Positions 3,048 through 53,970 of a DNA stretch of 62,094 nt are shown one piece after another; within the stretch, counting starts at the first letter, position 1; each line of letters begins with the position of its first letter. Source of the DNA: Bernardetiaceae bacterium. Its GTDB lineage: Bacteria > Bacteroidota > Bacteroidia > Cytophagales > Bernardetiaceae. A program made the position numbers and the translations under genes. The notes under the pieces were generated by a model. The model saw nothing but the letters and a program-made list of their open reading frames with translations. It did no database searches and was not told where the DNA came from. The stretch is from assembly GCA_020832465.1 (NCBI GenBank), contig JAFIER010000250.1, positions 1-62,094 on the forward strand, in the 5' to 3' direction.

Positions 3048-3144
3048 GACTCAAATTTTGGTTTGCCGTGAATAATAATTATTAAAACAAAAGAGATAGC
3101 ATTTAGCCTCGAAAAGACTAAAGCCACTCTGAAATCAGGAATGC

Positions 3145-3152
3145 AAAGGTAA
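3145..3152 (-). promoter_or_regulatory. Candidate -7 promoter element for rplC operon
   Basis: On the minus strand this reads TACCTTTG, matching the Bacteroidota housekeeping -7 consensus TAnnTTTG. A clear -33 TTTG at 19-21 bp was not seen, so the call is moderate. It would give a 5' leader of roughly 90 nt before rplC, in line with the operon starting at rplC rather than at rpsJ. Confidence 0.5.
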
Positions 3153-3208
3153 GAATTTTTTTGTTTTAATAAAAATTATAGCACCTAAATTTTATTCTTT
3201 TTGCTTGA

Positions 3209-3988: not shown

Positions 3989-4019
3989 AAATGTAAATGC
4001 TAAATTATACCCCCCCCTT

Positions 4020-5882
4020 TTACAGCTTTTTTGATTTAATGCTAAGTGTGGCAATCTCTTCGCGAAGCGAACGGTGCTCGCTCCGCTCAATTACATCTGT
4101 ATATACAAAACCTAAGCCCAGCATAACAAATGGAACAACAAGCCAAAAAAATGACATATACAACGATAAATAAAATATACGAGATAGGGTATAAGACAAA
4201 CTCTCATGCTCAAGAAAATGTGTATCTAAAATACTGATATGAAGTAGCGTTAAGGGCGAAGACAAGAAACTATAACAAAGCAAAACAATAAAAAGTGAAA
4301 AAAAGCACCAAACTAATGTATTGCCTACGGAACGCCCCAGCACAAAAAATCCCATAGTTATGGATTTACCTACTGTTTTGTTATCTACAAACTTAGCATT
4401 GAGTATGTACCAGTAAAGAGGGAAAAGCAAAAATACAACTAAAACAAAAATAACAGAAACCTTCAGTAGCATATACAAAAAGGCTATAAAAGGAAACCAA
4501 AGTAAGGGGTAAATCCAGCCTTTTTTCCAAAAAAGAGATTGTGCGTTATTTACTTTTGCTTTATTTTCTGTTAGCGCTTCATTGAACATAAAATGCAAAA
4601 AACTCACAAGCAACGTGCAAATATAAATTTGTATAAGGGCTGCAAAAGAGAGAATATCTGGAAATAGCGCATCGTAATATACATCGCGTGAACTATGATA
4701 TTCTATATCGTAAGGGAAGTTTGTCTGTGCTAAACTGCTATACGCCATGAGCAACTGCACAAGCAAAGGTAGCCACATAAAGCGTAGCACAAAGCTACTA
4801 ATGCTCGAAAAGTGATTACGCCAAAAGGCTAAGGTATCGGTAAAAATATCACCCACTTCGCGAAAAGCATAAAAACTATAAGTCTCCTCAGGCAGGGGCG
4901 TAGGCTCATCTAATAATTGATTAACTTGCTTTGAGGACGATTGAGCCAATCGCTTAGGATACCATACAAAGTAAATATACATCGTAAATGCCATTGTTAT
5001 GATAATAGTGGCGCGTAGCATATCTGGAATTTCTGTATAGCGTGTAACAAAAGACTCTATAACACCCGCAAAAATCGTAACAGGCACTACGCCTGCAAGT
5101 ATCATCAAACCCCGCTTGGCACTCATTTGAAAAGAGGCCGCACGGCTATAACTGCCCGGAAAAAGTAAGCCTTTTCCCATTGTAACGCCTGCCGTACAAG
5201 CTATGACCATACCCAGTAGCTCGGGCGTACCGTGCATCCATATTGTAAGTGCAGACTCCCAAAACAAATCCCTTTCGTAAAAAAAGTATTGAAATACGCC
5301 TACCATGATGCCATTATAAAATGTAATAAAAACCGAACCCACGGCAGCAAAAATACCCATGACGAAAGTAAGCAAATCCACACGCAAGTTGTTGATTGTA
5401 ATTCCTAAAAACATATCTACTTGATTAGCAGATTTATAGACTGCCATAGGGTCGCCTTTTTCAATATAAGCCTCTGTCATAGCGATATAACTATCACCCA
5501 AAATAAGGCGTGAAATTTCAGGATAATAAATAGAGGAAACAACACCAAAAAATACAGCCAGCACAAAAACAATCATAGAAAAAAGCAACTCAAAACGCGC
5601 TTGATGCATGGTGAGCGGAAGCGTCGTACGCCAAAAATCTATGAAAGTACTGCGCTTCGAACTGCGATTCGTATAGAGTTTATAATATATGCCTTTAGCT
5701 GCATCATTGAGGTAAATACGAACAGAACGGGCACTATAAAACGTGCGGGCGTAAGCTAAATCATCTACAAGCTGTATGAACAGCTCGGATAGCGTATTCG
5801 GATTAGGCTTTTTGCTTTTTTGCAACTGCTCGAGCTGCTTCCAGTTATCCTTGTTTTTGTCTATAAACGAAGATTCGCGCAT
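4020..5882 (-). CDS. SpoIIM-like (DUF95) multi-pass membrane protein
   Basis: 620-residue membrane protein. The N-terminal third has the stage II sporulation protein M / DUF95 pattern: a helical soluble head, then TM segments around VFVLAVFFGVVSS, and the conserved block FITFYNGIMVGVF, WMHGTPELLGMVIACTAGVTMGKGLLFPG. The H-G-x-x-E-L motif is typical of the family. The C-terminal half has at least five more hydrophobic helices and is poorly conserved. Bacteroidota do not sporulate; related proteins outside Firmicutes usually sit in RDD/MoxR/DUF58 clusters, none of which are visible. The immediately downstream EI24-like gene may be its partner. Confidence 0.75.
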   Translation of the reverse strand: MRESSFIDKNKDNWKQLEQLQKSKKPNPNTLSELFIQLVDDLAYARTFYSARSVRIYLNDAAKGIYYKLYTNRSSKRSTFIDFWRTTLPLTMHQARFELLFSMIVFVLAVFFGVVSSIYYPEISRLILGDSYIAMTEAYIEKGDPMAVYKSANQVDMFLGITINNLRVDLLTFVMGIFAAVGSVFITFYNGIMVGVFQYFFYERDLFWESALTIWMHGTPELLGMVIACTAGVTMGKGLLFPGSYSRAASFQMSAKRGLMILAGVVPVTIFAGVIESFVTRYTEIPDMLRATIIITMAFTMYIYFVWYPKRLAQSSSKQVNQLLDEPTPLPEETYSFYAFREVGDIFTDTLAFWRNHFSSISSFVLRFMWLPLLVQLLMAYSSLAQTNFPYDIEYHSSRDVYYDALFPDILSFAALIQIYICTLLVSFLHFMFNEALTENKAKVNNAQSLFWKKGWIYPLLWFPFIAFLYMLLKVSVIFVLVVFLLFPLYWYILNAKFVDNKTVGKSITMGFFVLGRSVGNTLVWCFFSLFIVLLCYSFLSSPLTLLHISILDTHFLEHESLSYTLSRIFYLSLYMSFFWLVVPFVMLGLGFVYTDVIERSEHRSLREEIATLSIKSKKL

Positions 5883-5931
5883 AGTGAGATCAATAGTTTA
5901 CTATGTATAAGTTGATTTAGTTATTACAAAC

Positions 5932-6054
5932 CATACCATTATACGTTTTTCCATAGCATGGGGGTTGCAACCCCCACGCTATCGAAAAATGGGCTTAGCA
6001 ATAATATTTCTAAAAGAAATGTTATTGCTGGCAGGCGAATGCCTATGTAGTATG
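5932..6054. mobile_element. MITE family 1, copy 1
   Basis: Terminal sequence CATAC.ATTATAC at the left and its inverted form (CTATGTAGTATG) at the right enclose two hairpins: one with CCATAGC..GGGGGTTGCAACCCCC, the other around AATATTTCTAAAAGAAATGTTATT. It is flanked by 9-bp direct repeats attacaaac (5923-5931) and ataacaaac (6055-6063), 8 of 9 identical, as expected for a target duplication. No coding capacity. Related to 28446-28569, 38629-38750 and 60091-60212. It occupies the spacer between two divergent genes. Confidence 0.8.
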
Positions 6055-6275
6055 ATAACAAACTCTTAAAGTTTTGGAAAAAGCTACTCAAAAGGAGTGC
6101 TTTGGGTTATTTCTATCGGATAATATTACGCAAAAGATTTCAAAAAAGACGCATTCAACGAACTTTATCTGAGAATATTTGTATTTGCATAGTGGTATTT
6201 TTTTCGTAAATTTACAAAAAACACCAAAACTCGATAAAACAGTAACATCTAAAAACTACTAATAGTCAAAGTTTT

Positions 6276-7463
6276 ATGAATGATTTTGAAGTGCAACATC
6301 GTGAAAACGAACAAAAACAGATTCTTATCAATCGAATTCGTAAATTACATGATGCTGATGCTTTAGCACAGATAGCGCAGATTTTGGATAAGCAAACTAC
6401 AAGTCAAAATACGAGTGAAGACAGCGATTATCTGAAAATTATTGATGAAGTGCTGGCGCAATACGACGTGCAAGATGAGCCATTACGCCTTGGCGAAACT
6501 CCACCCTCTACGGATACACCGCTCGGGCGTTTTGAAAATAAAATGGCTGCGCCTATGTTTTATTTGAGTATTGTGTCCTTGATTTTGGCGGGTTTGATAC
6601 TCATGTTTGTAACCTCGAACGAAGTACGCACACATTTGCAGGCTTGGGTTTGGCCCTTTCTTATCATAAGCTATGGGCTTACAAACTTAGTCTTTGTTTA
6701 TGAATATATTATGCTATGGCGACTGCGAGGTCGGCATAAAATCCCAGCCCGTATTATGCTTTGGCGTAGCTTAGAAGTGATTTTCCCCGCAGTGCGAATG
6801 GGCGCACGCCGTTTGAGTGCTAAGGATTGGATGTGGTTTCCGATATGGGGGTGGTGCAAAGTCAATTTATCCCTATTCAATCATTTAAAAGACCTTTTTA
6901 GCAAGCCATTGATTATTATTGCGCTCTGCATTATTCCCATTATGATTATTGATTTGAAGTTTAAAAAACGCATTATTGAGTATTTGCCCGATATCAATAT
7001 TTATTTAGAAATTGCACACGCCACAATTTGGATTGCCTTTACCTTAGAATTTATTATGATGATTTCGGTATCGAACGAAAAAAAGGATTATGTAACCCGC
7101 AACTGGATTGATTTAGTCATTATTGTGCTTCCACCGTTTTCATTTTTGTTAGATGCTTTTAGTGGGTCGGCTATATTGCGTATGCTAAGGCTCAATCAAT
7201 TAGCAAGGGTATATAGGGTGCGTGGCCTTGTTACTAAAATCCGTCAAACCATGATTCTGCTCTCTGCTTTTCAAAGAATGATGTATCCGAAGCCAAGTAT
7301 GCACTTGCGTTCGTTACAAAAACAAATTGAAAAAAACCGGCGTGAACGCGTATTTATTGAAAAACAAGTAAGTCAAGCCGTAGAGAGAATCAAAAAACAA
7401 AATAAGAAAAAAGCTGCCAAGCAAGAAAAAAAAGCCCAAAAAGAAGCGTCTAAAACAAGTTGA
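6276..7463 (+). CDS. Voltage-sensor-like membrane protein without pore
   Basis: 395 residues: a polar N-terminus (1-85), two TM segments (about 90-145), a linker, then a four-helix unit (about 205-335) that looks like an ion-channel voltage sensor. S2 has an acidic residue in FTLEFIMMIS, S3 reads NWIDLVIIVLPPFSFLLDAF, and S4 carries spaced arginines in ILRMLRLNQLARVYRVRG. What should follow is S5, a selectivity filter and S6, but instead there is a Lys/Glu-rich coiled-coil tail (about 345-395) with no T-x-G-Y-G-like filter. Related proteins are usually annotated as ion transporters. It may be a stand-alone voltage sensor or a degenerate channel. hpt follows 20 bp downstream, suggesting one transcript. 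Confidence 0.65.
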   Translation: MNDFEVQHRENEQKQILINRIRKLHDADALAQIAQILDKQTTSQNTSEDSDYLKIIDEVLAQYDVQDEPLRLGETPPSTDTPLGRFENKMAAPMFYLSIVSLILAGLILMFVTSNEVRTHLQAWVWPFLIISYGLTNLVFVYEYIMLWRLRGRHKIPARIMLWRSLEVIFPAVRMGARRLSAKDWMWFPIWGWCKVNLSLFNHLKDLFSKPLIIIALCIIPIMIIDLKFKKRIIEYLPDINIYLEIAHATIWIAFTLEFIMMISVSNEKKDYVTRNWIDLVIIVLPPFSFLLDAFSGSAILRMLRLNQLARVYRVRGLVTKIRQTMILLSAFQRMMYPKPSMHLRSLQKQIEKNRRERVFIEKQVSQAVERIKKQNKKKAAKQEKKAQKEASKTS

Positions 7464-7483
7464 ATCAAAAAATAAAAACGATT

Positions 7484-8014
7484 ATGACTATTACTGTCCG
7501 AGATAAATCTTTCGTTCCTTTTATCTCTGCGCAAGCCATCCAAGCGCGAATAGCTACCTTGGGAGAGCAAATAACCCAAGATTATGCCGATAAAAACCCA
7601 CTATGTATTGGTATCCTAAATGGTGCATTTGTATTTGCTGCCGATTTGGTGCGTGCCGTAGCATGCCCCTTAGAAATTTCGTTTCTCAAATACGCATCTT
7701 ACGAAAAAATGCAGTCTTCGGGTAAAGTTAAACAGTTATTAGGCATAAATGAAAACCTCGAGGGTAGGCATATCATTATCATAGAGGACATTGTCGATAC
7801 GGGAGCTACGATGCAACAAGTCAGAAAAGACCTAAAAAGTGCTGGAGCAAGCTCTGTTAAGCTCGCTGCTTTGCTATTCAAACCCAAAGCAGTGCGTAGC
7901 GATATTCATATAGACTACTTGGGTTTTGAAATTGAAAACCGATTTGTCGTCGGCTACGGACTCGATTACGACGGTGCCGGGCGTAACCTCGATGCCATAT
8001 ACGTGATTGCATAA
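7484..8014 (+). CDS. hpt: Hypoxanthine phosphoribosyltransferase
   Basis: Purine salvage enzyme that converts hypoxanthine (and usually guanine) plus PRPP to IMP/GMP in the cytosol. The 176-residue product carries the PRPP-binding motif IIIIEDIVDTGATM and the upstream segment IGILNGAFVFAADLVRA. I chose the ATG at 7484 (MTITVRDKSF); an in-frame TTG at 7460 overlapping the previous stop codon is possible but less likely. Family length is normal. Confidence 0.92.
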   Translation: MTITVRDKSFVPFISAQAIQARIATLGEQITQDYADKNPLCIGILNGAFVFAADLVRAVACPLEISFLKYASYEKMQSSGKVKQLLGINENLEGRHIIIIEDIVDTGATMQQVRKDLKSAGASSVKLAALLFKPKAVRSDIHIDYLGFEIENRFVVGYGLDYDGAGRNLDAIYVIA

Positions 8015-8219
8015 CTTTAGAGCCTAATCGTGAGCTATAGCGACCGCAGGGTGATATAGGCTCGGTAGCATAATCTTATGCACCAAAACCATTGCGCCTG
8101 CAGTGTTTCCTCTCTTGTACGGTCAAGAATATCAAAAAACAAACTGCTATTTGTGCAATACAGCTTACAAAAAACCAGAAAATTTTATCATTTAATACCT
8201 CATTATATTTATACAAAAA

Positions 8220-9374
8220 GTGAAACATACATCAATTATCGAACTTAGCCTTTCGGCACTCAAAAATAATATCAACTTCATACGTCGCAGAATAGGAAAG
8301 GAAGCAAAAATATGCTCTGTCGTAAAAGCTAATGCCTATGGACATGGCATTAGCACCTATATCCCCATGCTTGAAAAGGCAGGGGTTAAATACTTTGCCG
8401 TTGCCTCTTCTTTTGAAGCCGATGAAGTTTACGAAGCAGCAAGCCCTGATGCACGCATCATGATTATGGGTATTCTCTACGACCGAGACCTCGAGGAAAT
8501 TATTGGGAAAGGCATGGAGTTCTATGTGTTTCACTATGATAAACTAGTCAAAGCCGTTGAAATTGCTAAAAAACTGGGTAAGCCAGCCAAAGTGCACCTC
8601 GAAGTAGAAACAGGTTGCAACCGAACGGGGCTTAGTCAAGAGGATTTGGATAACTGTATCAAATTAATGAAAAAAAATCCTGAATGGGTTGAATTTGTAG
8701 GTTTGTGTACGCATTTTGCCGGTATTGAATCATTAAGTAATCATTTTCGTACGACCCGTCAATATGTACGCTACAAAGAATTTTTGAGTTACTTAAAAAA
8801 GAAAAAAATGGAACCAGAGCTTCGCCATATTGCTTGCTCGGCAGCGGCTATTGCTTTTCCTGATACTGCTTTGGATATGGTACGTGTCGGTGTAGCTCAA
8901 TTTGGCTTTTGGCCCAGCCCTGATGTATATAATCTGTATATCTCGGAGCAAGGCAACCGCCGTGAACGCCCACTCAAACGTGTAATTACTTGGAAAACAG
9001 ATATTATGGATATTAAGCATGTGCAGGAACACGAGTTTATTGGCTACGGAACGAGCTATCAGGCGCAGCGAGATATGCGTGTAGCGGTTTTGCCATTAGG
9101 CTATTCTAATGGGTATAGCCGTAGCCTATCTAATAAGGGATATGTGCTTATTCACGGTAGAAAAGCACCTATCGTCGGACTTATCAATATGAATCTTTTT
9201 ACCGTAGATATTACGCACATTCCAGAAGCACAACTCGGCGATGAAGTAGTGCTTATTGGCAAACAAAAAAATAATACCATCTCGGTAAGCTCTTTTACCA
9301 ATTTTTCTAATCAGCTCAACAATGAACTTATTAGCCGCCTGCCCGCTGCTATACCACGTGTAGCAAAAGTATAA
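8220..9374 (+). CDS. alr: Alanine racemase (stand-alone paralogue)
   Basis: PLP enzyme interconverting L- and D-alanine for peptidoglycan. The 384 residues start at a GTG. The PLP lysine lies in VVKANAYGHG (Lys36) and the second catalytic base is probably Tyr276 in IGYGTSY. Substrate-loop residues deviate slightly: VETGCNRTGL replaces the usual D-T-G-M-x-R-x-G, and INMNLFTVD has Asn where most Alr have M-D. A second alanine racemase domain is fused to MurF at 51502-53970, so this copy is redundant or has another substrate (for example a broad-specificity amino acid racemase). The gene stands alone between hpt and a MscS-type channel. Confidence 0.85.
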   Translation: MKHTSIIELSLSALKNNINFIRRRIGKEAKICSVVKANAYGHGISTYIPMLEKAGVKYFAVASSFEADEVYEAASPDARIMIMGILYDRDLEEIIGKGMEFYVFHYDKLVKAVEIAKKLGKPAKVHLEVETGCNRTGLSQEDLDNCIKLMKKNPEWVEFVGLCTHFAGIESLSNHFRTTRQYVRYKEFLSYLKKKKMEPELRHIACSAAAIAFPDTALDMVRVGVAQFGFWPSPDVYNLYISEQGNRRERPLKRVITWKTDIMDIKHVQEHEFIGYGTSYQAQRDMRVAVLPLGYSNGYSRSLSNKGYVLIHGRKAPIVGLINMNLFTVDITHIPEAQLGDEVVLIGKQKNNTISVSSFTNFSNQLNNELISRLPAAIPRVAKV

Positions 9375-9401
9375 TAAAGTGATCTGATGCTGATAGTAGC
9401 A

Positions 9402-9436
9402 ACCTCTGCCGTTGCTTGTGGCTCACAAGCAACGAG
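9402..9436. terminator. Hairpin downstream of alr
   Basis: GTTGCTTGTG and CACAAGCAAC form a 10-bp perfect stem with a 3-base loop (GCT), extended by CCTC/GAGG outer pairs. There is no strong T-tract, so it is a hairpin that could end or protect the alr transcript rather than a textbook intrinsic terminator. Confidence 0.5.
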
Positions 9437-9487
9437 GAGTTTAGCATATTTCTTGTAGTAATGCATCTTTATATTGACAAGGCAGTC

Positions 9488-9597
9488 GGGGGGGCGTTTT
9501 ATGTTGATGCGGTGATATAATTTTATGCCCTTAAACAACTCCTCTCTTCGTGTTTGGTGTTCATACCAAACACCAGCGGTAGTTTTGAGATGCGCCC
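9488..9597. mobile_element. MITE family 4, copy 1 (degenerate)
   Basis: About 110 bp sharing a long stretch with the copy at 57845-57954: both contain a variant of CCTTAAA.CAACT.CTCTC..CGTGTTTG.TGT, then ACCAAACAC and AGTTTTGA.ATGC.CCC. The ends are GGGGGCG on the left and CGCCC on the right. No direct target duplication is seen here. Non-coding, inside the 337-bp spacer upstream of the MscS-type gene. Confidence 0.65.
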
Positions 9598-9711
9598 AAT
9601 TTGGAAGAGGCACTTATAAGTTGATCGTATATCCAACTACCGCAAAATACTATGATTATCCTACCTAAGACTTTTACTTTTGTTTTTTTACAGTAAAAAT
9701 CTATCAAAGCA

Positions 9712-11241
9712 ATGAAATTTAGCGATGTAACCGTTTTAGTCTTAGCGTATTGTATTGAGTTTTCGGTGTTGCTTATCTTAGGAAGGCTTATTTTTTTGAT
9801 GAAAATAGGTATTAGGCAACGCTTTATTTTGTGGGGATTTTTTAGTTTTTTGCTCACGTCTCTGCTTTTAGTAGTAAGGGAGTTGCAACCAGAGCTTTTT
9901 GTACTGCGCAGCGAGCTTTTGCCTTATGCTTTTATAGGCATTCGCTGTGTATGGTGGTTTGCTATAGCAATTATTTTGAGTAATTTATTGCATTACTTTT
10001 TATGGAATGGCATTTTTCATAAAAATGGTCAGACGCGCGTGCATCGCTATGTGATTCAGTTTTTTGATGCTACAATTTATGTATTAGCTGTTGTTTTGAT
10101 ATTGAATCAAGTTTTTGAGCAATCTATATCGGGTTTGCTGATTACCTCGGGTGTATTGGCTATCATACTTGGTCTTTCGGCACAAACAACTTTAGGGGGT
10201 GTTTTTGCCGGGCTTGCGCTCAACCTTAATAACTCGTTCAATAAAGGTGATTACATAATCCTCGACCGTATAAGAGGCTATGTCATTGATATGAATTGGC
10301 ACTCCGTAACCATACAAGGGCGTGATGAGCGCATGGCAATTATACCGAACAAACTTATCGACGACTCTTTGATTATCAATAGCAATGCTATGAGCAAACG
10401 CCGTTTGCACGATATAGAAATTTGTATAGACTATGCTGTGCGTCCCGAGTTAGTTAAATCAATTATCATAGAAGCAGTAAAGCACTCTCCTTATGTAGAG
10501 GGTGAAGCCCAAGTTTTTGTATCTAAGTTTGCTGAAACAGGAATTTTTTATAAAATTGAGATTTATACTTCGGAGTTTGAAGATATTCCCGTAAATAATG
10601 ATTTACTGACGCTTGTTTGGTATGCTTTAGCACGCGAGCATATCTCTGCACGCCCCTCGATTTGGCAAAGAGAAAGTGAGTTTACGCCGCCTTTAATAGA
10701 GCAGGTAAGTATGCTTGATTCTAGTGATACGATTTTGAAAACCTTACGTAGCATTTCTTTTTTTGAAGTTTTATCAGAATCTGAATTGCAACAGTTAGCG
10801 CAAAAAACAGTTCATTTCATAGCCCCTCCGCCTCAACGTATAACTGTAGAAGGCGAAGCAGAATATGCCCTTTATATTGTTCAAAAAGGCAGGCTTAGCG
10901 TCTGGGTAAAAAATAATGAAGGGCAGGATATACAAATTGCAAGCCTCAAAGTCGGTGATGTTTTTGGTGAAATGGCATTACTCACAGGAGAGCTGCGCAA
11001 AGCAACGGTTGTCGTAGAGCAGGAAGCCTCCCTCTATGAAATTTCTAAATCGGCTATCCTTCCGATTATAACCAAAAGAAAAGAAATTCTAAACGACTTA
11101 AGCAAGCTACTTGCAGAACGACAATTAGCCGTAGAGCAAGTACAAGCCAATGAAGATAAACCAAAAGCAAGAGAAGCGCATATTGAAAAATTAAATATAC
11201 AGCTACTAGCGCTGATGCGGAATTTTTTTGCCTCTAATTAA
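9712..11241 (+). CDS. MscS-type mechanosensitive channel with cyclic-nucleotide-binding domain
   Basis: 509-residue inner-membrane protein. Residues 1-140 hold several TM helices. The pore-lining TM3 region is ITSGVLAIILGLSAQTTLGGVFAGLALNL-like (Gly/Ala spaced, ending in the NxFxxGD motif NSFNKGDYI). A beta domain follows (about 180-330). The C-terminus (about 345-470) is a CAP_ED domain with a phosphate-binding cassette FGEMALLTGELRKATVV that keeps the Gly-Glu and Arg of ligand-binding members. This is the architecture of bacterial cyclic-nucleotide-gated MscS relatives (bCNG); in characterised members cNMP gates the pore and mechanosensitivity is weak. A TACTTTTG element at 9675-9682 could be the -7 box. 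Confidence 0.88.
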   Translation: MKFSDVTVLVLAYCIEFSVLLILGRLIFLMKIGIRQRFILWGFFSFLLTSLLLVVRELQPELFVLRSELLPYAFIGIRCVWWFAIAIILSNLLHYFLWNGIFHKNGQTRVHRYVIQFFDATIYVLAVVLILNQVFEQSISGLLITSGVLAIILGLSAQTTLGGVFAGLALNLNNSFNKGDYIILDRIRGYVIDMNWHSVTIQGRDERMAIIPNKLIDDSLIINSNAMSKRRLHDIEICIDYAVRPELVKSIIIEAVKHSPYVEGEAQVFVSKFAETGIFYKIEIYTSEFEDIPVNNDLLTLVWYALAREHISARPSIWQRESEFTPPLIEQVSMLDSSDTILKTLRSISFFEVLSESELQQLAQKTVHFIAPPPQRITVEGEAEYALYIVQKGRLSVWVKNNEGQDIQIASLKVGDVFGEMALLTGELRKATVVVEQEASLYEISKSAILPIITKRKEILNDLSKLLAERQLAVEQVQANEDKPKAREAHIEKLNIQLLALMRNFFASN

Positions 11242-11270
11242 GCTTAAATACGCACTAATAGCTTTACTGC

Positions 11271-11332
11271 CTGTAGTACGAAGCTCCAGCTTCGCTATAA
11301 GCCACTTCCGAAGCTGGAGCTTAGGGCTACAG
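11271..11332. repeat. GCTCCAGC palindrome, copy A
   Basis: 62-bp inverted repeat bounded by CTGTAG..CTACAG with long arms GAAGCTCCAGCTTCG and CGAAGCTGGAGCTT. Each arm is itself nearly self-complementary (GAAGCT/AGCTTC), so one long hairpin or two short ones can form. Other copies are at 12564-12625 and 45404-45466. About 30 bp further right (11360-11390) lies a MITE family 3 terminus. Confidence 0.8.
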
Positions 11333-11359
11333 CTTTAAAAACGGTGAAGGTTGAAACTA

Positions 11360-11390
11360 CCTAAGTTGATTTACCAACTTGATGTACACC
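11360..11390. repeat. MITE family 3 terminus (solitary)
   Basis: CCTAAGTTGATTTACC followed by AACTTGATGTACACC is the inverted form of the family 3 end seen at 14904 and 45354. No matching second end is found to the left of the adjacent GCTCCAGC palindrome, so this looks like a decayed composite. Confidence 0.55.
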
Positions 11391-11475
11391 TGTATGATGG
11401 GCGTATGCGAACTAATCATAATTTTTGCTATATTTCATTTTGAATGCGTAGCAAAACCCTAAACAAACATAAAAC

Positions 11476-12501
11476 GTGCTGATAAAAAAGAAAAAAATAC
11501 CTTTTGTGGTAGCTAAGGATTTACAAGATTTTTTGATAAAATACAAAAAATACAGACCGCTACCTATTGCTTATAGCGACCTTTTTCGCTACTCGAATGC
11601 CATTGCTCACTATGATCGCTTTGGTGAAGATACGCTTTGGAACACCCTTTTTTATGACCCAAGTGATAGAAACGAAATTTATGACGGGCTTAAAGCAATT
11701 TATGCCCTACTTAAAGCCGACGGAGACCTCTCCGTTATGGCACACCTCTACATAGATCGCGTAGATTTGTGTACCTACGGCAATACACAACCTTTTAGAG
11801 TGCGTATCGTAAACCGAATCAATGATAATTTTGACTATTTTTACCTCAAAAAAGCTGATGCTTCAAGAGTTTATGGATTAGAACTCGAGGACTTGGTCTC
11901 GCCCAATCATATCACTTATTTGATATACGAGGATACACTCATCGAAGAGCATATTGCAGGCATGCCAGGCTATCAGTTTATGAATGAATATTTGCAACGC
12001 AAGCAACTCAACAAAACCCGTTTGGGTAAAGAGTTTGTTAAATTTAACGAACGCTGTTTTGTACGCCTACTCGGAGATATGCACGCAAATAATTTTATTG
12101 TAGATGTTACCCCTGACTTCGAAGATGAGCACTACAGAATCAGAGCTATTGATTTTGACCAGCAGTCCTTTGAAGGAAAAAGTGCTGTATATATGCCAAA
12201 ATACTACAAAGAAAATAATCCAATTATTCAAATAGGCATCGAGACAATGACACCCGAAACCGTTCGCCAATACCAAAGAGAAGAGCGTTCGCTTATCGCC
12301 ACACGTATCAAAGCCTCTTATTATGCTCTTAATGCACTCGTAGAGGCAATGCGCAAAGATACAATTTCATTACCCGAAAACGAAAAAAGACTCAAAACCG
12401 AACTCGCTGATTATTACAAAGATAAAAGATTTGAAAAAGCCCATAATATGGGAGATATACTGAGATTGAGCCTCAGCAGATTACTCGAGGAGAGTGAATA
12501 A
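11476..12501 (+). CDS. Kinase-fold protein of unknown substrate
   Basis: 341 residues from a GTG start. The central part resembles the aminoglycoside phosphotransferase / choline kinase-like fold: an N-lobe lysine in DYFYLKKAD, an IEEHIAG hinge, the catalytic loop LLGDMHANNFIV (D-x-H-x-x-N) and a metal-binding AIDFDQQ. The C-terminus is helical. It is soluble and has no signal peptide. I do not recognise a named family; small-molecule or protein phosphorylation is inferred from the loops only. It stands alone, with MITE-type sequence on both sides. Confidence 0.6.
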   Translation: MLIKKKKIPFVVAKDLQDFLIKYKKYRPLPIAYSDLFRYSNAIAHYDRFGEDTLWNTLFYDPSDRNEIYDGLKAIYALLKADGDLSVMAHLYIDRVDLCTYGNTQPFRVRIVNRINDNFDYFYLKKADASRVYGLELEDLVSPNHITYLIYEDTLIEEHIAGMPGYQFMNEYLQRKQLNKTRLGKEFVKFNERCFVRLLGDMHANNFIVDVTPDFEDEHYRIRAIDFDQQSFEGKSAVYMPKYYKENNPIIQIGIETMTPETVRQYQREERSLIATRIKASYYALNALVEAMRKDTISLPENEKRLKTELADYYKDKRFEKAHNMGDILRLSLSRLLEESE

Positions 12502-12528: not shown

Positions 12529-12649
12529 CATACTAATAGACATTCGATAACCAGAAATAATGCCTGTAGTACGAAGCTCCAGCTTCGTTATAAGCCACTT
12601 CCGAAGCTGGAGCTTCGGGCTACAGGTTTAAAAAATGTATAGTGGTATA
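12529..12649. mobile_element. MITE family 1 termini enclosing the GCTCCAGC palindrome
   Basis: Left end CATACTAATAGACATTCG plus AACCAGAAATAA equals the family 1 left arm; right end AAAAATGTATAGTGGTATA equals the family 1 right arm. The usual CCATAGCG hairpins are replaced by the palindrome at 12564-12625. The flanks agaaaaaaa (12520-12528) and agaaaaaac (12650-12658) match in 8 of 9 bases, indicating that the hybrid transposed as a unit. Confidence 0.75.
12564..12625. repeat. GCTCCAGC palindrome, copy B
   Basis: 62-bp palindrome almost identical to copy A (11271-11332). It is inserted between the left and right arms of a MITE family 1 element. Confidence 0.85.
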
Positions 12650-45353: not shown

Positions 45354-45466
45354 GGGTGCACGTCAAATTAGTAAACAGACTTAACGATTTAATATTTATG
45401 CACCTGTAGCAACGAAGCTCCAGCTTCGTTTTAGGCTATTTTCGAAGCTGGAGCTTCCGGCTACAG
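45354..45466. repeat. Family 3 terminus joined to GCTCCAGC palindrome (copy C)
   Basis: GGGTGCACGTCAAATTAGT (45354-45372) is the family 3 left end; 45404-45466 is the palindrome CTGTAG..GAAGCTCCAGCTTCG..CGAAGCTGGAGCTTC..CTACAG. No right terminus follows. The palindrome therefore occurs in both a family 1 and a family 3 setting. Confidence 0.7.
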
Positions 45467-45528
45467 TGCTGGTGCTGTCTATTGCAAATCCCTCATCATG
45501 GTCAAAGACCTTGTGAGTGAGTCTGAAT

Positions 45529-48500
45529 CTAATCCTTATGAATAATCATTTTTGCATCGAACGCTACGGAAAGTAGCGACTCTATTTGTGAGAGCGACTG
45601 CGCATCGAGCGTCTCGAGGTCTAACTCCAAACGAAAACGACCTTTTTGCGACAAAAGCGCATCGCCCGTGAGCTCCTCTTGTTTCTCTGCGCCAATGAGC
45701 AAAACACGCGCTTCGCTATCTTGACGCAACAGCTGCCACTCGGCTAATCCCAAACTCACTTTGCCCTCGCGAGAAGCCTTGACAATAAAACTTCTATCGG
45801 GCGCATCTCTGCGCAAACCTTTGATAATCGAACTCGCCGATTGCAATTTTTCTACATCATAAACTTCGGTATCAATTTGCTCACTGGCTATTACATCGAG
45901 GCTCGACTCCGCCGTTTCACTCTCGTGCTCGAGGCGAATCAAAGCGAGCAACTCATTTTGAGAAATCGGACTCGAGGAAAGCTCGTCGTGCAAAGCATCG
46001 CTAATATGCTTGACTTTGCCATTGACGTAAGTCGCCCCTTCATATTCGGCGACGTTTCCTTTGCGGAAAAGCCCTAAATTTGTATCCAAGTAAGTAATTT
46101 GATAAGGCATCTGTCCTTGAATGAGCCAAATTTCTTTGCCTACCTGCCCTTTCCAAGCGAGGTAATGCGGTGCGTCCCACTCACGGCTTTCGGCTTCGAG
46201 CACCTCGAGGGCAAGTGTTTCTTGAATGCGCGAAGTGGGTAGCTCCAGATGGCGCAAATCTATGCAAGTCATGCGCTTTTTATCCTGCTCGAGCTTTTCT
46301 AAAAGCCACTCGAGCGAAAAGCCGTATTTTTCTTGCAACTGCTTTTGGCGCGCCTCGTCGGAGTAGTAAAGCTGATAATCACCTTTGGGCGCAAGGGTGT
46401 AACGCATTTCGCCCTCTTCCACTTGCGAGACATAAGGTAGCGGCAGCGCCTGCTCGAAATGCTCGATGTTGTTGTAGAGCTTTCTGACCCAAAAAAGTCG
46501 CTCATCGGCTTCTGTAATTTCAGGAATTTCGAGTTCTTGTTCCATCAGCCAATAAAGCGTCGCCCTATCCAAATCGGCTTCGAAAGCAACTATGGCATTG
46601 ACTTGTTTTTGGCTCGGAATGCCTTCATTTTCTTTCAAATAGCGGCGCATTTGCAGCAACGGACTCTCGGCAGTGTGTACGCCTAAGGCTTGCAAAAATG
46701 CCGTTTTGCGCTCGCTATCGCCTGCTTCTAACCAAGCCGTGAGCGAATCTGGCAGTTGCTCTTCGTGGCGGGCGTAATCTGAAAGCAACAAACAGCGTTT
46801 GGGCTCAAAGCCCAAAGCACGGGCGGGGCTATCGTTTTGGCTTATCGCAAAATCGATATGCGCATCTTCGGTTGGCAACCAATTTTCATACAAAGTTTGT
46901 AAAAAACTTTGATGCAAATCTGCATTCATCGGCACTTTGAGCGGTTGGCACTCAAATCCCACCTTCGAGAAACAAGGACGCACCAGCAGTTTGCTTTCCG
47001 CAAAATCCCATATAGGCTGTTTTTCTAAGTTCAAAATATCGCCCATATCGGCATAATCCGATGCCAAAATCGCCTCTTCACGAATAAAATCTGCCCCCTC
47101 GACATACCAATGCGAAGAGGATGCCAGCGGCTGATTGCCACCTAAGGTACGCACTTCAAAATCGTTGAGCAAGCTCTTATCCTGTGTCAAATAAATCTGC
47201 GCAAGCACAAAAGTGAGTTGGCTTGCATTTTCCAAAAGGCTGTATTGCGCACGTAACTCCTCGAGTAAAAATTCTGCTGAAAGGCTGCGCTCATTATAAA
47301 ATACTTTTTGGCGCAAAGCCTCCTCTTGCTCGGGCGCAAATTGTGCGATAAGCTGTTCGCAAAGCGCAAAATAGCCTTCCCAATGGGGGAGCAGTGCGGC
47401 GGTTTGAAGTTCGATTTTGCCTTGCTTACCCAAGTCGAGGGTTTGTGTGGGGCTGTAGGCGTAGTCTTCGAGTTTGAAAATATTGCCGTCTTTGTCCTCA
47501 AGTAGAATTTTTTGTCTTAGCGCATCGCTATCGGCATTTTTTTGTGTCAGGCTTTGCAGGGCTTGCGCCTCCATGCTTTCAGTGGCGTAGGCTACGCTTT
47601 CTTTGATGCGTACTTCTTGTAGCTTTTCGAAGAAATGTACCTGTGCTTTTGCGCTTCCGCTTTCGCTGATGAGTTTTGAAATCTCTTCGGCAGAGCTATC
47701 TTCGAGTAAGATTTTGAAAATGTCCTCCTCCAAAAGTAAGCCTTCGTTTTCGGCTTGTGCGTTATAAAAACGGTGAGGCAGGAGTTTGTACGTATCGGGC
47801 AGTTTTTCGGCAACAGCCTCGACGAGTTTTTGCTTGCCTTTGCCTAAGTAATACTGTTTCGCTTCGCTATCTACAATCAAATTGTAGTGCTTGCCTTCGG
47901 CATCTTCCTCGATACAAAAATGCGTAAAAAAGGGCTCGCTACAGCGTTCGTAAAAAGCCAAAAACTCTTGCATCTGGCTTTTGTTGAGAGCGGCTGGTGT
48001 AATCATTCGGGGTTCTAAAAGTCGCTCAGTGCAGGCAAAGGGTTTTACGCCTAAATAAGGTAAAGCCTCCTCTGTGGGGAGTTGCAATCCCGTAAGGATT
48101 TCGATGGCTTTCGCCAAATGCTTATAATTTTTAGCCTCTTGCAATTGCTTATGAAAAAAACTCTGCTCTTCGTAAAGAAAACCTTCTGCCGTATCGCTAT
48201 AAATAAAGCTTACCGACTCGAGCGGTTTGTTTTTGCGATGCTGTCGGAAGTAGTGCAATACTTTTTCGTAGAAATCCTTGACATTTTTCTTGGCATCTTC
48301 TTGTTCGATGATAACCTCCCAGTTTGCCTGAATAATATCTTGGTACAAATGTGCCTCGTCGACGCAAAGCGACTCGAGCGGTAGATTAGATTCTAAAAGC
48401 AAAGTTGCTTCCTCTTCCTTGATTTTGAAGGGCTCGAGCCAGGCGGGCACTTGCGTTTGTGGTGCGATAAGTTCGTTGAGGTGGGCTTGCAATCCCAAGC

Positions 48501-51159
48501 GATTCGTAAAAAGTGCCAGGCGGGTGAGGCGTGCCTTATCAACGGTTTTGAGCAGCAACTCAAAAAGTTCGGATTTTTCGGCAGGTTCTAAAGTCATCTG
48601 CTCGGAGCGAATGACCATTTCCATATACATGGCATTCCAATTGCTGCGGTATTGCACGGAAGGCGTTTTGAAGGGGGCTTCATTTAAAAAAGGCAAAACT
48701 GCCTCGTCGGGTGTCGGCAGGTCTGTCATTTTCATAATCGCACTTTGCAAGGCTTTATAATCGGCTGCCTCTTGCAGGTTTTTATGATAAAAAATAGCCT
48801 CAGCTTTCGCTAAATCTCGATTTTCTTCGACAAAAATATAGGCTTTATCCTCGAGGCTTTTATGAAATTTGCGCAACTCGAAATAGGCTTTTATACTTTC
48901 GTAAAACTCCGCTACGGGCGTTTCGGCTAAAGCCGCTGGAGCTACGCTTTCCCAGTTGGGGTAAATAATTTGCGTATAAATTTCGCCTCGTTCTTTCTGA
49001 ATCAAAAACTCGCTGAGGCTTTCGTCATATTCTTTTTCGGCAATTTTATAAGGCTCGAGCCACGCCTCTACGCTCACTTGTGGTGCGATGAGTGCGCTCA
49101 CGGGCATGGCTTCTCCCTTTTGGTTTTGGAAAAGTTTCCATTGCAAGAGGCTCTCTTTGGGGAGTTTTTTCCATTTTTGCGCCTCTACGAAAAGGGCATT
49201 TTTATGCTCGGGCGTGAGGTCGTGGTGCAAACTGCGCTCTGCAATTTTATTGAAAAGTAATTTTTCGTCTTCCAAATAAGGAAAACGCTTTTGCAAATCT
49301 TCGTAAATGCTTTTGTACTCGGCGATATTAAAATCCAATACTGCAAACTCGAGCGCACGCAGCACTTCAGTGATGGGTTGCGTTTTTTCGTTGATGAGCA
49401 GATTGTTTTCGTTTTTTGCTAAGTCATCAATGGCATAAAAATGCGATTTGCCTTTGCCGTCTTTAAATCGGAAACATTTAATAGCAGAAAATTTTTGTAA
49501 AAATTCCTCATCGCTACGGACTTTGCGCAGCTCCTCTATGAATTGGGCGTAATGCGTATCTGAAAGTTTTTCAATCCAAGCATTGATAAGGTTCGTATCG
49601 CCTGCTTTGATAAGTTGCTTGAGTCCCCATTTCGGGAGGTTGAGCTTTTCTTTGAGGTTGGCTTCCTTCAAGATTTCGGCATCAGCTTCGGGGTCGTTCC
49701 AATAAAACCACTCTTTGGCAACGCCAAAATTCATGGGCTCGAGCGGTAGCTTGGTGTTTTTGAGCACGATGATTTCTTTTGGATAAAAACCTTTTTTTGC
49801 CGTTGGCAAATTGTTTTGTATCAGCTCGAGGAGCGGTTCGTAGAGATGCGTATTGAGCAATTGTTTGTTGTACTCGGCAGAGGCATCGGAGAGCAAAATG
49901 GCTTTGAAAATATGCGCAAACCGCTCAAAATTATTTTCCTTATAGTCGTTTAATCGGGCTTCGAGCTGTTCTACGATATAGGAAAAAGTCTCGATATTGG
50001 CTTCGCCTTGGTCGTCTAGTCGGGTGCGGTCTGTGATTTTGGCAAACGAACTGGCGTGGATAAAAAAGGCAAAACGGTGTCGCTCGTTGCGCATCGGAAA
50101 AAACTGGTACAAACTCGGTGCTTCTTTGAGCTCGAGGGCGGCTTGTGTGTCTTTGGGGTATCCAAAGGTAATATCAATCGGACAAAACGGAAACTCGGGG
50201 TCTATGCGTTTGAATGCTTCCTCTTCGGGTTGGATACGAAATTTTTCGGCTTCGATAGGAAATCGCTCTATCTGACGGTCTTGGAGGACAACGCTTTGCA
50301 GGGTTTTGAGCGTATTTAAGGAGTAGCCTATGCCTGCGCTGACGTTGAGCAGCGATTGCTTGAGCTTTTCGTGTTTTTTTTCACCAAACTTGAGAAAGAA
50401 AAGTGAGCCTTGTTTCAAGTCCAAGTTTTCGAGTTGTGCTTTGTGCTTTTGCAAAAATTGGTGCAAGGCGGTGTATTCTTCGTTTTCAAATACAGCACGC
50501 TCGGCGTATTGCAAATCCCTTACTTTTTCGTCGGGCGAAGCGGGGAAGCAAGAGAGTACGATTTTGAAAAGCCATGGTAGGTCTTTGTTTTTGCCTTCGG
50601 CATCGGCGATGCTTTCGAGCTTTGGTGCGGCATCGGCAGCGAGGAGCTGCTGGAGCTGCTCGGCTTTTTGCCAGCTAAAAATCACGGGACCTGCTAAATC
50701 ACGGATAAGCTCATCTGCGCCATCGGATTTGCCGACAAGGCGGTGTGCGAGCTTGAAACCAATGCCATAGCGACCGATTTTATCGCAATTATGCGCTTTT
50801 GTTTTATCTGCTTTTGTGCCTTGAAAGGAGTTGAGTATTGCCTGTACATCGGCTTTTGAAAAGGGTTTGCCGTTGTTTATGACCATAAAATAATGCTCGT
50901 CGTAGATAACGGCGCAGTCGGTAGAGAGGCTATCAGCGGCGTTTTGCAAAAACTCATAAATGGCTTGTTCGTCTTGCGCATTTTGTAGCTTAGGCGTGAG
51001 GTCGGCTTTGATATTGCTGACAATACCGTTGACCATTTTATAAAAACCGCTTTTGTTTTCGTGAATGCTTCCGATAAAGTGCTCGTCCCACTCTGGCATA
51101 TCGTAGCCTTGTGCTTTTTTCCAATCGGTGCGGAAAGTGCGAATATCTTTGATTTGCAT
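45529..51159 (-). CDS. Giant sacsin/HSP90-like ATPase protein
   Basis: 1,876 residues from the ATG at 51159 (MQIKDIRTFRTDWKK); an upstream start at 51234 only adds an unlikely hydrophobic stretch. The first 250 residues are a GHKL/HSP90-type ATPase: N-box AIYEFLQNAADS (Glu and Asn), G1-like FMVINNGKPFS (Asn where Hsp90 has Asp), and G2 KIGRYGIGFKLAHR. The rest is large and mostly helical with no TM or signal. About residues 650-830 and 857-1041 are tandem copies (ALIAPQVSVEAWLEPYKI versus ELIAPQTQVPAWLEPFKI; FYHKNLQEAADYKAL versus FFHKQLQEAKNYKHL), period about 207. Sacsin-like ATPases in bacteria are poorly characterised; some occur in defence islands. The gene stands alone apart from the 2H gene. 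It is densely populated with CTCGAG. Confidence 0.8.
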   Translation of the reverse strand: MQIKDIRTFRTDWKKAQGYDMPEWDEHFIGSIHENKSGFYKMVNGIVSNIKADLTPKLQNAQDEQAIYEFLQNAADSLSTDCAVIYDEHYFMVINNGKPFSKADVQAILNSFQGTKADKTKAHNCDKIGRYGIGFKLAHRLVGKSDGADELIRDLAGPVIFSWQKAEQLQQLLAADAAPKLESIADAEGKNKDLPWLFKIVLSCFPASPDEKVRDLQYAERAVFENEEYTALHQFLQKHKAQLENLDLKQGSLFFLKFGEKKHEKLKQSLLNVSAGIGYSLNTLKTLQSVVLQDRQIERFPIEAEKFRIQPEEEAFKRIDPEFPFCPIDITFGYPKDTQAALELKEAPSLYQFFPMRNERHRFAFFIHASSFAKITDRTRLDDQGEANIETFSYIVEQLEARLNDYKENNFERFAHIFKAILLSDASAEYNKQLLNTHLYEPLLELIQNNLPTAKKGFYPKEIIVLKNTKLPLEPMNFGVAKEWFYWNDPEADAEILKEANLKEKLNLPKWGLKQLIKAGDTNLINAWIEKLSDTHYAQFIEELRKVRSDEEFLQKFSAIKCFRFKDGKGKSHFYAIDDLAKNENNLLINEKTQPITEVLRALEFAVLDFNIAEYKSIYEDLQKRFPYLEDEKLLFNKIAERSLHHDLTPEHKNALFVEAQKWKKLPKESLLQWKLFQNQKGEAMPVSALIAPQVSVEAWLEPYKIAEKEYDESLSEFLIQKERGEIYTQIIYPNWESVAPAALAETPVAEFYESIKAYFELRKFHKSLEDKAYIFVEENRDLAKAEAIFYHKNLQEAADYKALQSAIMKMTDLPTPDEAVLPFLNEAPFKTPSVQYRSNWNAMYMEMVIRSEQMTLEPAEKSELFELLLKTVDKARLTRLALFTNRLGLQAHLNELIAPQTQVPAWLEPFKIKEEEATLLLESNLPLESLCVDEAHLYQDIIQANWEVIIEQEDAKKNVKDFYEKVLHYFRQHRKNKPLESVSFIYSDTAEGFLYEEQSFFHKQLQEAKNYKHLAKAIEILTGLQLPTEEALPYLGVKPFACTERLLEPRMITPAALNKSQMQEFLAFYERCSEPFFTHFCIEEDAEGKHYNLIVDSEAKQYYLGKGKQKLVEAVAEKLPDTYKLLPHRFYNAQAENEGLLLEEDIFKILLEDSSAEEISKLISESGSAKAQVHFFEKLQEVRIKESVAYATESMEAQALQSLTQKNADSDALRQKILLEDKDGNIFKLEDYAYSPTQTLDLGKQGKIELQTAALLPHWEGYFALCEQLIAQFAPEQEEALRQKVFYNERSLSAEFLLEELRAQYSLLENASQLTFVLAQIYLTQDKSLLNDFEVRTLGGNQPLASSSHWYVEGADFIREEAILASDYADMGDILNLEKQPIWDFAESKLLVRPCFSKVGFECQPLKVPMNADLHQSFLQTLYENWLPTEDAHIDFAISQNDSPARALGFEPKRCLLLSDYARHEEQLPDSLTAWLEAGDSERKTAFLQALGVHTAESPLLQMRRYLKENEGIPSQKQVNAIVAFEADLDRATLYWLMEQELEIPEITEADERLFWVRKLYNNIEHFEQALPLPYVSQVEEGEMRYTLAPKGDYQLYYSDEARQKQLQEKYGFSLEWLLEKLEQDKKRMTCIDLRHLELPTSRIQETLALEVLEAESREWDAPHYLAWKGQVGKEIWLIQGQMPYQITYLDTNLGLFRKGNVAEYEGATYVNGKVKHISDALHDELSSSPISQNELLALIRLEHESETAESSLDVIASEQIDTEVYDVEKLQSASSIIKGLRRDAPDRSFIVKASREGKVSLGLAEWQLLRQDSEARVLLIGAEKQEELTGDALLSQKGRFRLELDLETLDAQSLSQIESLLSVAFDAKMIIHKD

Positions 51160-51501
51160 GCGTATAGATTTGAGTCTGTATTTATTGAAATTAAAAAACA
51201 ATAACCTGCTATTCAAGCCCAAAAAAATGAGCAAAAACCGTTTTCAAAATCCGAAAAAAAAGTGATACTAACAAACTTTAGACGAGTTTTTGTTCTAAAA
51301 AACAACTTATAGGCGAGGTATCTTGTGCTTGAAATTGCGAAATATAGGGTGATAATATTTGTTTTACGTCTTTTTTGCTTATCTTGTTGTGTATTACGGC
51401 ATGTATTAACAATTCTTTTTGAGCTGTTAGTTTTGCTTGTTGTAAAATGTTTCTTATTTTATGGCATTAAGATTTTTATTCAGAAACAGACAATTCATTG
51501 T
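51160..51501. other. Divergent spacer between the sacsin-like ATPase and murF-alr
   Basis: An ORF reading into murF-alr from a GTG at 51325 would add about 59 hydrophobic residues, which the cytosolic MurF family lacks, so I treat it as non-coding. No clear promoter pair or inverted-repeat element seen. Confidence 0.5.
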
Positions 51502-53970
51502 ATGAACAATAGCATTTCACAATTATATGAGCGGCTCAAAAATTATAAAATATGTATAGATAGCCGTCGTATTGTCCAGCCTTCTCAAAGTGTATTTTTT
51601 GCATTGAAGGGTAAGCATCACGATGGTCATGACTTTGTTAGGGCTGCTTATAAGGAGTCTGTTCGTTATTTTGTAATTCATGAAGCGCACTTGCTTGATT
51701 TTGAAGATTTAGCGGGGGCTCATTTTTTTGTGGTTGAAAACCCTTTGCTTTGTTTGCAAGAATTAGCAGCTTATCATCGGCAGCAGTTTAGTATGCCCTT
51801 ATTAGCAATTACGGGTAGCAATGGCAAAACGATCGTAAAAGAGTGGCTTTATCAGTTGCTCAATGACCGTTATCAAATCAGTAAAAGCCCTAAGAGTTAT
51901 AACTCTCAAGTGGGCGTACCTCTTTCTTTGTGGCAGCTACAATCGGAGACGGAATTGGCAATTTTAGAGGCTGGGATTTCTGAACGTGGCGAGATGGATA
52001 AACTTACAGATATGCTTGCGCCTACGGAGGGTATTTTTACTAACATAGGTACAGCCCATGATAATGGATTTGCATCTTTACAAGAAAAAATACAAGAAAA
52101 AATAAAATTGTTTAAGGGTGTAAAAACGCTTATATTCAGGGTTGATAATCCACTTGTATATGCAGAGTTACAAAAACTATCTTGTGAGAAAGTGATGTGG
52201 TCTTGGAATCCGATAGCCCTTCACAAGGATTTACATTTTCGTATTCAGACGCTTTTGCAAGATGAGTGCCGCACGGAGCTTATTGTATCTAACCTAAAAA
52301 CGGGTAAAGACTTTTTAATACGTCTTCCATTTGCAGATGTCGCGCAGATAGAAAATGCTTTGCACTGCATGGTATGGATGCTTATACACCAGTTTACGCC
52401 CGATGAGGTTCGTGCACGTATTTCGGGTTTGCGCAATATACCTATGCGCCTTGAGCTTAAAAATGGCAAAGGTAATGCACGAATTATTGACGATAGTTAT
52501 AATAATGATTGGGGTGGGCTAATTGTGGCCTTAGATTTTATGTCGCAGCATCACCAAAAGACTCGCAAAACGGTTATTTTATCTGATATGCTTGAGGTGG
52601 CTACCAATGAGGAGCGTCTCTATGAAGAGATTTTTAACCTTTGTGAGGCTCAGAAAATTACTCGTTTTATAGGGGTAGGTGAGCAGATGGTACGCTTTCA
52701 ACTTAAAGCTGAAAAGCTACCACAAACAGATTTTTTTGCCACTACTAAGGAGTTAGAACAAGCGATTACGAATGGCATGCTTCATTTTTTTGATGAGACA
52801 ATCCTTATCAAAGGGGCACGTGCTTTTGAATTTGAGCGTATAAGCCATCTTTTACAACAAAAAACGCATGGTACAAGGCTTGAAATAAATTTAGATGCAC
52901 TTACGCATAATCTCAATTTTTATCGCTCCTGCCTCTCTCCTAAGACTAAACTGATGGTTATGGTTAAGGCTTTTGCTTATGGCAATGGCAACTTTGAAGT
53001 AGCGAATCTTTTGCAGTTCCATGGCGTTGATTATTTGGGTGTAGCTTTTGCTGATGAAGGCGTGGCTTTGCGTCAAAACGGCATTCGCATACCTATTATG
53101 GTGTTGAACCCCCGTCCAGAAAGTTTTGCTACTATGGTGGCGCACGATTTAGAACCCGAGATGTATAGCCTTGAGCTTTTGTATCAGTTTAAGGAGTTTT
53201 ATCAAAGGCAGTACATAAAACGCGAAGATAAGCACATCAAAATTCATTTAAAAATTGATACGGGTATGCACCGCTTAGGTTTTCAAGCTGATGAAATCGA
53301 TGCTTTATGCGACTTTTTGCGCACCGACCCCCCTTTAGATGTGCAAGTAGCATCTGTATTTAGTCATTTAGCAGCTTCTGATATGGAATCTGAAAGGAAC
53401 TTTACACAGCACCAAATCCGTCTTTTTAAGGATTTAGCTACACAAATAGAGGCGGCTTTAGGCTATCGCACACTAAAGCATATTGCTAATACAGCAGCTA
53501 TTACACGTTTTCCAGAAGCGCATTACGATATGGTACGTCTCGGTATCGGACTTTATGGGGCTGACCAAGACGTGGCACTTAAATCTGTAAGTAGCCTCAA
53601 AACAACGATTTCACAAATCAAAAAAGTAAAGGCTGGTGATACTGTCGGCTATTCACGTAAAGGGCAGGTGTCTGAGGATATGCGCATAGCTACTATTGCC
53701 ATTGGCTATGCTGATGGTTATGACCGACGCTTTAGCAACGGCGTAGGTAAGGTATTAGTAAATGGAAAGTTAGCCCCTGTTATTGGTAATGTTTGTATGG
53801 ATATGACTATGATTGCCTTAGGCAATATAGAAGCAGAGGTAGGTGATGAGGTTATTATTTTTGGTAAGGATTTACCTATGTCAGAGTTAGCAGCGACTAT
53901 CGGCACGATTCCTTATGAAATATTGACTAACGTGAGCGAGCGCGTAAAACGGGTTTTTCATACAGAATAA
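51502..53970 (+). CDS. murF: Bifunctional MurF ligase / alanine racemase
   Basis: 822 residues from the ATG at 51502. The N-terminal part (1-450) is MurF, which adds D-Ala-D-Ala to UDP-MurNAc-tripeptide: AITGSNGKT (about 101-109, ATP), KSYNSQVGVPLS, ILEAGISERGE, GIFTNIGTAH, IIDDSYNND. The C-terminal part (about 455-822) is an alanine racemase: PLP lysine in MVKAFAYGNG, IDTGMHRLGF, GYSRKG with the catalytic Tyr, IGYADGYDRR and CMDMTMI. This fusion is known from Bacteroidota and couples D-alanine supply to its use. It coexists with the separate alr at 8220. Confidence 0.95.
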   Translation: MNNSISQLYERLKNYKICIDSRRIVQPSQSVFFALKGKHHDGHDFVRAAYKESVRYFVIHEAHLLDFEDLAGAHFFVVENPLLCLQELAAYHRQQFSMPLLAITGSNGKTIVKEWLYQLLNDRYQISKSPKSYNSQVGVPLSLWQLQSETELAILEAGISERGEMDKLTDMLAPTEGIFTNIGTAHDNGFASLQEKIQEKIKLFKGVKTLIFRVDNPLVYAELQKLSCEKVMWSWNPIALHKDLHFRIQTLLQDECRTELIVSNLKTGKDFLIRLPFADVAQIENALHCMVWMLIHQFTPDEVRARISGLRNIPMRLELKNGKGNARIIDDSYNNDWGGLIVALDFMSQHHQKTRKTVILSDMLEVATNEERLYEEIFNLCEAQKITRFIGVGEQMVRFQLKAEKLPQTDFFATTKELEQAITNGMLHFFDETILIKGARAFEFERISHLLQQKTHGTRLEINLDALTHNLNFYRSCLSPKTKLMVMVKAFAYGNGNFEVANLLQFHGVDYLGVAFADEGVALRQNGIRIPIMVLNPRPESFATMVAHDLEPEMYSLELLYQFKEFYQRQYIKREDKHIKIHLKIDTGMHRLGFQADEIDALCDFLRTDPPLDVQVASVFSHLAASDMESERNFTQHQIRLFKDLATQIEAALGYRTLKHIANTAAITRFPEAHYDMVRLGIGLYGADQDVALKSVSSLKTTISQIKKVKAGDTVGYSRKGQVSEDMRIATIAIGYADGYDRRFSNGVGKVLVNGKLAPVIGNVCMDMTMIALGNIEAEVGDEVIIFGKDLPMSELAATIGTIPYEILTNVSERVKRVFHTE

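Follow-up and report, generated by a model that had tools for sequence, protein, structure and literature searches.

What does an ATPase of 1,876 residues, encoded by a lone gene among housekeeping genes, do for a bacterium of the family Bernardetiaceae (Bacteroidota; Cytophagales)? We addressed this question in a window of 62,094 nucleotides, i.e., the whole stretch of DNA that was analysed (assembly GCA_020832465.1, contig JAFIER010000250.1). The reading frame proved real: its 1,876 codons are intact, the translation has a single terminal stop, and homologues start at the same residue. An in-frame TTG at 51234 is a possible upstream start that would add 25 residues, but we do not favour it and regard the length of 1,876 residues as right, because homologues align from the residue at the ATG given in Table 1. 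The solitary position that the initial annotation described is also correct, the neighbours being accC, MgtE, a MurF-alanine racemase (MurF-Alr) fusion, and Asd; these genes are divergent or separate, and the tmtA-like gene has no operon partner. The MurF-Alr fusion gene (51325-53970) and the tmtA-like gene are divergently oriented. We saw no mobile element, integrase, or defence island within the window. The GC3 of the tmtA-like gene is 0.503, compared to 0.307-0.422 in the 17 other genes of the window. A hairpin repeat of ~65 bp (CGAAGCTCCAGCTTCG...CGAAGCTGGAGCTTCCGG) is found directly downstream of the gene, at 45400-45475, and again at 12563-12625; there are ~40 distinct copies genome-wide, with identity up to 95%, and on these sequence features we class it as a REP-like element.

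Table 1. Features of the tmtA-like gene and its product, in window coordinates.
Feature	Residues	Position	Strand	Remarks
tmtA-like gene	1,876 aa	45529..51159	minus	ATG at 51159; coordinates include the stop
Sacsin-type GHKL ATPase domain	46-300	50260..51024	minus	Pfam, NCBIfam, structure model
N-box (EFLQNAAD)	E69, N73, D76	50932..50955	minus	E69/N73/D76 invariant in 57/57
NNGKPF	95-100	50860..50877	minus	Asn for the Hsp90 adenine-binding Asp, as in sacsin
GRYGIGFK, glycine-rich lid motif	129-136	50752..50775	minus	Alignment of homologues
Hsp90/MORC/topo VI-like middle (transducer-like) region	300-512	49624..50262	minus	Model and PDB matches to ~512
~205-aa module, copy 1	628-833	48661..49278	minus	Self-comparison
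~205-aa module, copy 2	837-1044	48028..48651	minus	Self-comparison; other clades have a single copy
Helical/beta scaffold	1045-1745	45925..48027	minus	Containing model without PDB match
Putative decayed NOV_C (ex-DUF3883) nuclease-like region	~1757-1830	45670..45891	minus	hhalign chain A6-A5-A4

The GHKL domain and its ATP pocket

The N-terminus had been assigned to the GHKL ATPases (sacsin/Hsp90-like), and profile and structure comparisons support this. The NCBIfam model of the sacsin N-terminal domain scores 55.7 bits (cut-off 50), and HATPase_c_3, the only Pfam model above its cut-off, passes barely (26.2 bits; cut-off 25), while Pfam SACS remains under its own (26.2 versus 32.8 bits). A phmmer search of PDB chains by sequence found no match to the protein. 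We found that the AlphaFold model of residues 1-845 (mean pLDDT 86.8) has human sacsin SR1 (5v44) as its top PDB match (Z 12.6, rmsd 2.9, 169 residues aligned, 22% identity), with many Hsp90/TRAP1, topo VI-B, MutL, and other GHKL structures within 1 Z unit of it; GyrB and MORC also match.

The ATP site, previously described as complete, is so in its N-box, whose three residues are invariant, but not with respect to the standard adenine-binding Asp of Hsp90 (yeast D79), which is replaced by Asn (N95) in all 57 family members. The sacsin pocket has been compared with that of Hsp90 and shows the changes Asp79 to Asn160, Met84 to Phe164, Gly83 to Val/Gln/Pro, Gly100 to Lys180, and Gln119 to Arg189 (PMC9880540). 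Residues N95, P99, F100, K116, and R130 of the tmtA-like protein correspond to sacsin Asn160, Val163, Phe164, Lys180, and Arg189. The predicted ATP pocket is of the sacsin type at the positions compared, and binding of ATP by it is plausible. The D-x-G-x-G adenine motif of Hsp90 proper is missing (N-N-G-K-P instead), and no Hsp90 family matches in Pfam. The likeness to sacsin consists of the SR1 fold and the pocket changes Asp to Asn, Met to Phe, Gly to Lys, and Gln to Arg, whereas the tmtA-like protein has one GHKL copy compared to the three SIRPT units of sacsin; none of the UBL, DnaJ, and HEPN domains of sacsin was detected in it (DnaJ and HEPN by Pfam).

The TmtA scaffold, the duplicated module and the C-terminus

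The remaining 1,600 residues had been described as matching nothing recognised, and this is refuted by the PADLOC TmtA model PDLC03970, which spans residues 1 to ~1790 (1198.9 bits, E=0; residues 1-839 and ~846-1790) and matched in none of 14 control genomes. PDLC03968, the sole other TmtA model to match, covers the N-terminal ~350 residues only (81.6 bits). The E-values behind TmtA membership depend on the PADLOC clustering. We take TmtA as the Tiamat protein, Tiamat being an anti-phage system that reportedly comes from a 2022 paper by Millman et al. By a profile match over most of its length, the protein qualifies as a member of the TmtA (Tiamat) family, and "unknown function" was too weak a label for a family catalogued under this name; that the present clade defends against phage is what we infer. 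The protein resembles Tiamat in the profile match, the single-gene layout, and the GHKL N-terminus, and differs from it in having a module doubled with respect to the profile and in matching one TmtA cluster only over its full length. The mechanism of Tiamat has been called unknown or poorly understood (PMC10740426, PMC12926258, PMC10482375), and Tiamat has been located in Pseudomonas defence hotspots (PMC12629846).

Profile positions 623-818 of PDLC03970 are matched twice because of an internal tandem duplication, the two copies being 33-38% identical in self-comparison (E=1.5e-26). The AlphaFold model of residues 690-1876 has a mean pLDDT of 82.2, and Foldseek and VIA-align comparisons of it with the PDB gave nothing significant, which does not make the fold new.

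At the C-terminus, IVKAS (1792-1796) stands where active relatives carry Y[IV][DE]xK; a Pfam scan of the protein for NOV_C (PF13020) gave no match, and the D...[DE]xK motif is missing. Helicase-partnered relatives have a C-terminal domain that retains the neighbourhood of this motif, with VVKS in place of D/E-x-K. By hhalign, this domain matches both the active NOV_C group (E=1.3e-18) and the tmtA-like (IVKAS) group (E=1.2e-21). A direct hhalign of the latter two groups aligned the preceding domain alone, and the proposed decay of a nuclease therefore rests on the intermediate, helicase-partnered group. The tmtA-like protein is best described as a scaffold with a putatively decayed nuclease-like end, missing an effector in cis; the motif suggests that NOV_C itself acts as a nuclease. 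The likeness to plant NO VEIN runs through the NOV_C domain (PF13020, ex-DUF3883), in which relatives with the same scaffold end, whereas the C-terminus of the tmtA-like protein lacks D/E-x-K and is not recognised by PF13020. Tiamat matches in plant-associated metagenomes lay on plant sequences (PMC12409356), which fits this likeness.

Relatives and their putatively exchangeable effectors

We collected 69 named loci of relatives, with open reading frames called mechanically, and compared 58 proteins for effectors, grouping them by length, context, and a quick tree. Clade A comprises the tmtA-like protein and 17 other full-length proteins (1,783-2,003 aa) from Saprospira, Aureispira, and other Bacteroidota; the B group has about 1,560-1,810 aa and clade C about 2,225-2,318 aa. 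The Sediminibacterium sequence L032 is placed immediately outside clade A, and these 19 rows group together with support of 100 in the quick tree. All clade A members, and also L034, have two copies of the ~205-aa module, with a third weak stretch in L027; those B and C members that possess the module have one copy.

We found [YF][IV][DE]xK near the C-terminus of 10 full-length relatives, including L014, a paralogue from the window's genome. Seven of the eight motif carriers scanned exceed the Pfam cut-off for NOV_C (L036, L052, L059, L070, L074, L083, and L014), and the eighth, L035, falls under it. An SF1 helicase gene is located downstream of nine relatives, at a distance of 40 bp or less in eight of them; the partner of L032, 2 bp away, also has a PIN_4 domain, and L032 itself has a single module and a motif-dead C-terminus (VTKS). 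Among the proteins compared, the catalytic NOV_C motif (10) and a downstream helicase (9) never co-occur, and neither is present in any of the 18 clade A members or in L034. Clade C genes lie inside HsdM-HsdS-helicase-TmtA-HsdR operons (type I restriction). Residues 1814-2230, at the end of the L057 TmtA, form an MkoA-like helicase region, its SF1 helicase C-terminal motif can also be seen in the other clade C tails, and no such fused helicase occurs in the clade of the tmtA-like protein. The clade B partner and the clade C fused helicase match models of the MkoA-type SF1 helicase of Mokosh, whereas the tmtA-like protein has no MkoA match and no such helicase is found downstream of clade A genes. 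At L057 (2198-20783), as at L053, L065, L069, and L073, two extra large genes lie between HsdS and HsdR, one for a RecD-like helicase (PDC-S68) and one for a TmtA-MkoA fusion of 2,300 aa, and a YgjP-like metallopeptidase gene then follows.

We propose that the tmtA-like protein is probably an accessory anti-phage TmtA (Tiamat) protein of a derived "effector-less" clade that works as an ATP-gated scaffold or clamp. This reading starts from what the comparisons established (kinship with TmtA, the arrangement of the domains, the lost effector motifs, the duplication, and the patchy distribution) and adds to it a presumed defence activity, ATP gating, phage sensing or target recognition by the modules, and action that is either direct or in trans. 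ATP bound by the sacsin-type GHKL domain would close the N-terminal and middle domains, as in Hsp90, MutL, and MORC, while the long scaffold and duplicated modules would recognise a phage product or complex. Closure might then block the phage directly, the target being sequestered or clamped, or call in an effector encoded elsewhere; we propose direct or trans action because the clade is without the NOV_C nuclease-like domain and an operonic or fused SF1 helicase. A broader, more tentative hypothesis is that GHKL scaffolds of the TmtA/NO VEIN type are a general platform for immune sensing with interchangeable effectors (the NOV_C nuclease; an SF1 helicase from the same operon, alone or joined to PIN; a fused helicase in type I restriction operons; a diverged relative beside ZorAB-like genes), in which clade A may have lost its effectors, doubled a putative recognition module, and come to defend by ATP-driven clamp or chaperone-like action in place of nucleic acid cutting. 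The relatives form a natural series (active NOV_C in cis; dead NOV_C with an adjacent helicase; helicase fused in restriction operons; effector-free with a doubled module) that separates sensor from effector and names the parts to delete or swap, and it ties a bacterial defence family to human sacsin pocket chemistry and the NO VEIN C-terminal domain.

Distribution and alternative explanations

Within its own family, the gene occurs in the window's genome and in two genomes of one other genus, and it is missing in the eight others; at E<=1e-60, matches are present in 19 of the 390 genomes examined from the order, and in 13 of 129 genera. MgtE and MurF-Alr are kept in the family yet are not adjacent in the relatives, and an empty site is therefore not readable there. 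No common neighbourhood was found among the homologues of family members. The initial annotation held that homologues in conserved housekeeping neighbourhoods of all Cytophagales would argue against an accessory or defence role; the distribution is instead patchy and the neighbourhoods are not common. Its suspicion of such a role gains support from these two results, the TmtA profile, the GC3 outlier, and relatives in restriction operons or by retron and AbiE genes.

In the survey of homologue neighbourhoods that it suggested, defence genes adjoin some relatives; the majority of clade A neighbours are housekeeping genes. A retron-type RT and AbiEii adjoin the clade-A-like L034 (L012/L034), and the L019 gene begins 28 bp after a DNA methyltransferase gene. 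Other neighbours are ComEC, RimK, and CHAT-TPR (L010), PcrB and WG repeats (L011), and TIM and CvpA (L013); coproporphyrinogen oxidase is found beside the gene in Saprospira grandis. Two proteins encoded next to clade A genes are matched by PtuA/PtuB (Septu) models, and Walker-A inspection places these matches most likely in the two Saprospira grandis loci; L022 and L029 were rejected as carriers of a Septu pair. Inspection by eye suggests a caspase-like (C14-type) protein at L015:8928-11513, two genes downstream of that clade A gene. At a threshold of E 1e-5, the full-length protein had no homologue in plasmid and phage collections, and the weak N-terminal plasmid matches are mostly DUF3883, unnamed ATP-binding, or hypothetical proteins.

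It is also conceivable, but unlikely, that the protein is a bacterial sacsin-like chaperone or proteostasis factor kept for a cellular function, whose scaffold was borrowed by relatives in defence operons. Sacsin SR1 is the structure closest to the N-terminal domain and sacsin is a reported chaperone, no effector domain remains, the neighbourhood is one of housekeeping genes, and the gene recurs across Saprospira and Aureispira, where its wide carriage could reflect vertical, non-defence maintenance. Yet such a function sits poorly with absence from 8 of 10 other family genomes and 371 of 390 order genomes, with the deviating GC3 and unshared neighbourhoods, and with full-scaffold relatives inside restriction operons. 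We consider it more doubtful still that this is a Tiamat-type protein still dependent on a helicase or nuclease supplied in trans, the two genes of a clade B system having become separated in the genome: the sister L032, with its single module, dead C-terminus, and adjoining helicase-PIN gene, points that way, but a search of the window's genome with the partner helicase gave only generic weak matches (best E 3.5e-8 over 168 residues), and no clade A locus has a downstream helicase. That the gene is what remains of a mobile defence gene, decaying and without function, is very improbable, given its intact frame and invariant N-box and the intact frames and two modules of all other full-length clade A members examined, even though effector motif and partner are gone.

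Two further GHKL genes were observed in the same assembly besides the tmtA-like gene, which we continue to regard as a probable defence gene. One (L100; G000:C254:6000-19131, 3085-7959, minus strand) is sacsin-like, has an SF1 helicase fused to it, and adjoins a caspase-like gene; its contig may be an assembly contaminant because of its GC content (0.50, versus 0.40 for the window). The other, L014 (G000:C70:1-12246, 4686-12246, minus strand), encodes a diverged relative of 1,701 aa (TmtA 392.6 bits) without close relatives among 395 genomes of the phylum. Its C-terminal NOV_C carries YIEAKT, and the gene comes directly behind a pair of ZorB/MotB-like genes, which are preceded by a ZorA-like coiled coil truncated where the contig ends. 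Zorya types I-III have been described with ZorCD, ZorE, or ZorFG (PMC11890865); judged by its gene content, the L014 locus is a Zorya-like ZorA-ZorB-ZorB-GHKL/NOV_C arrangement.
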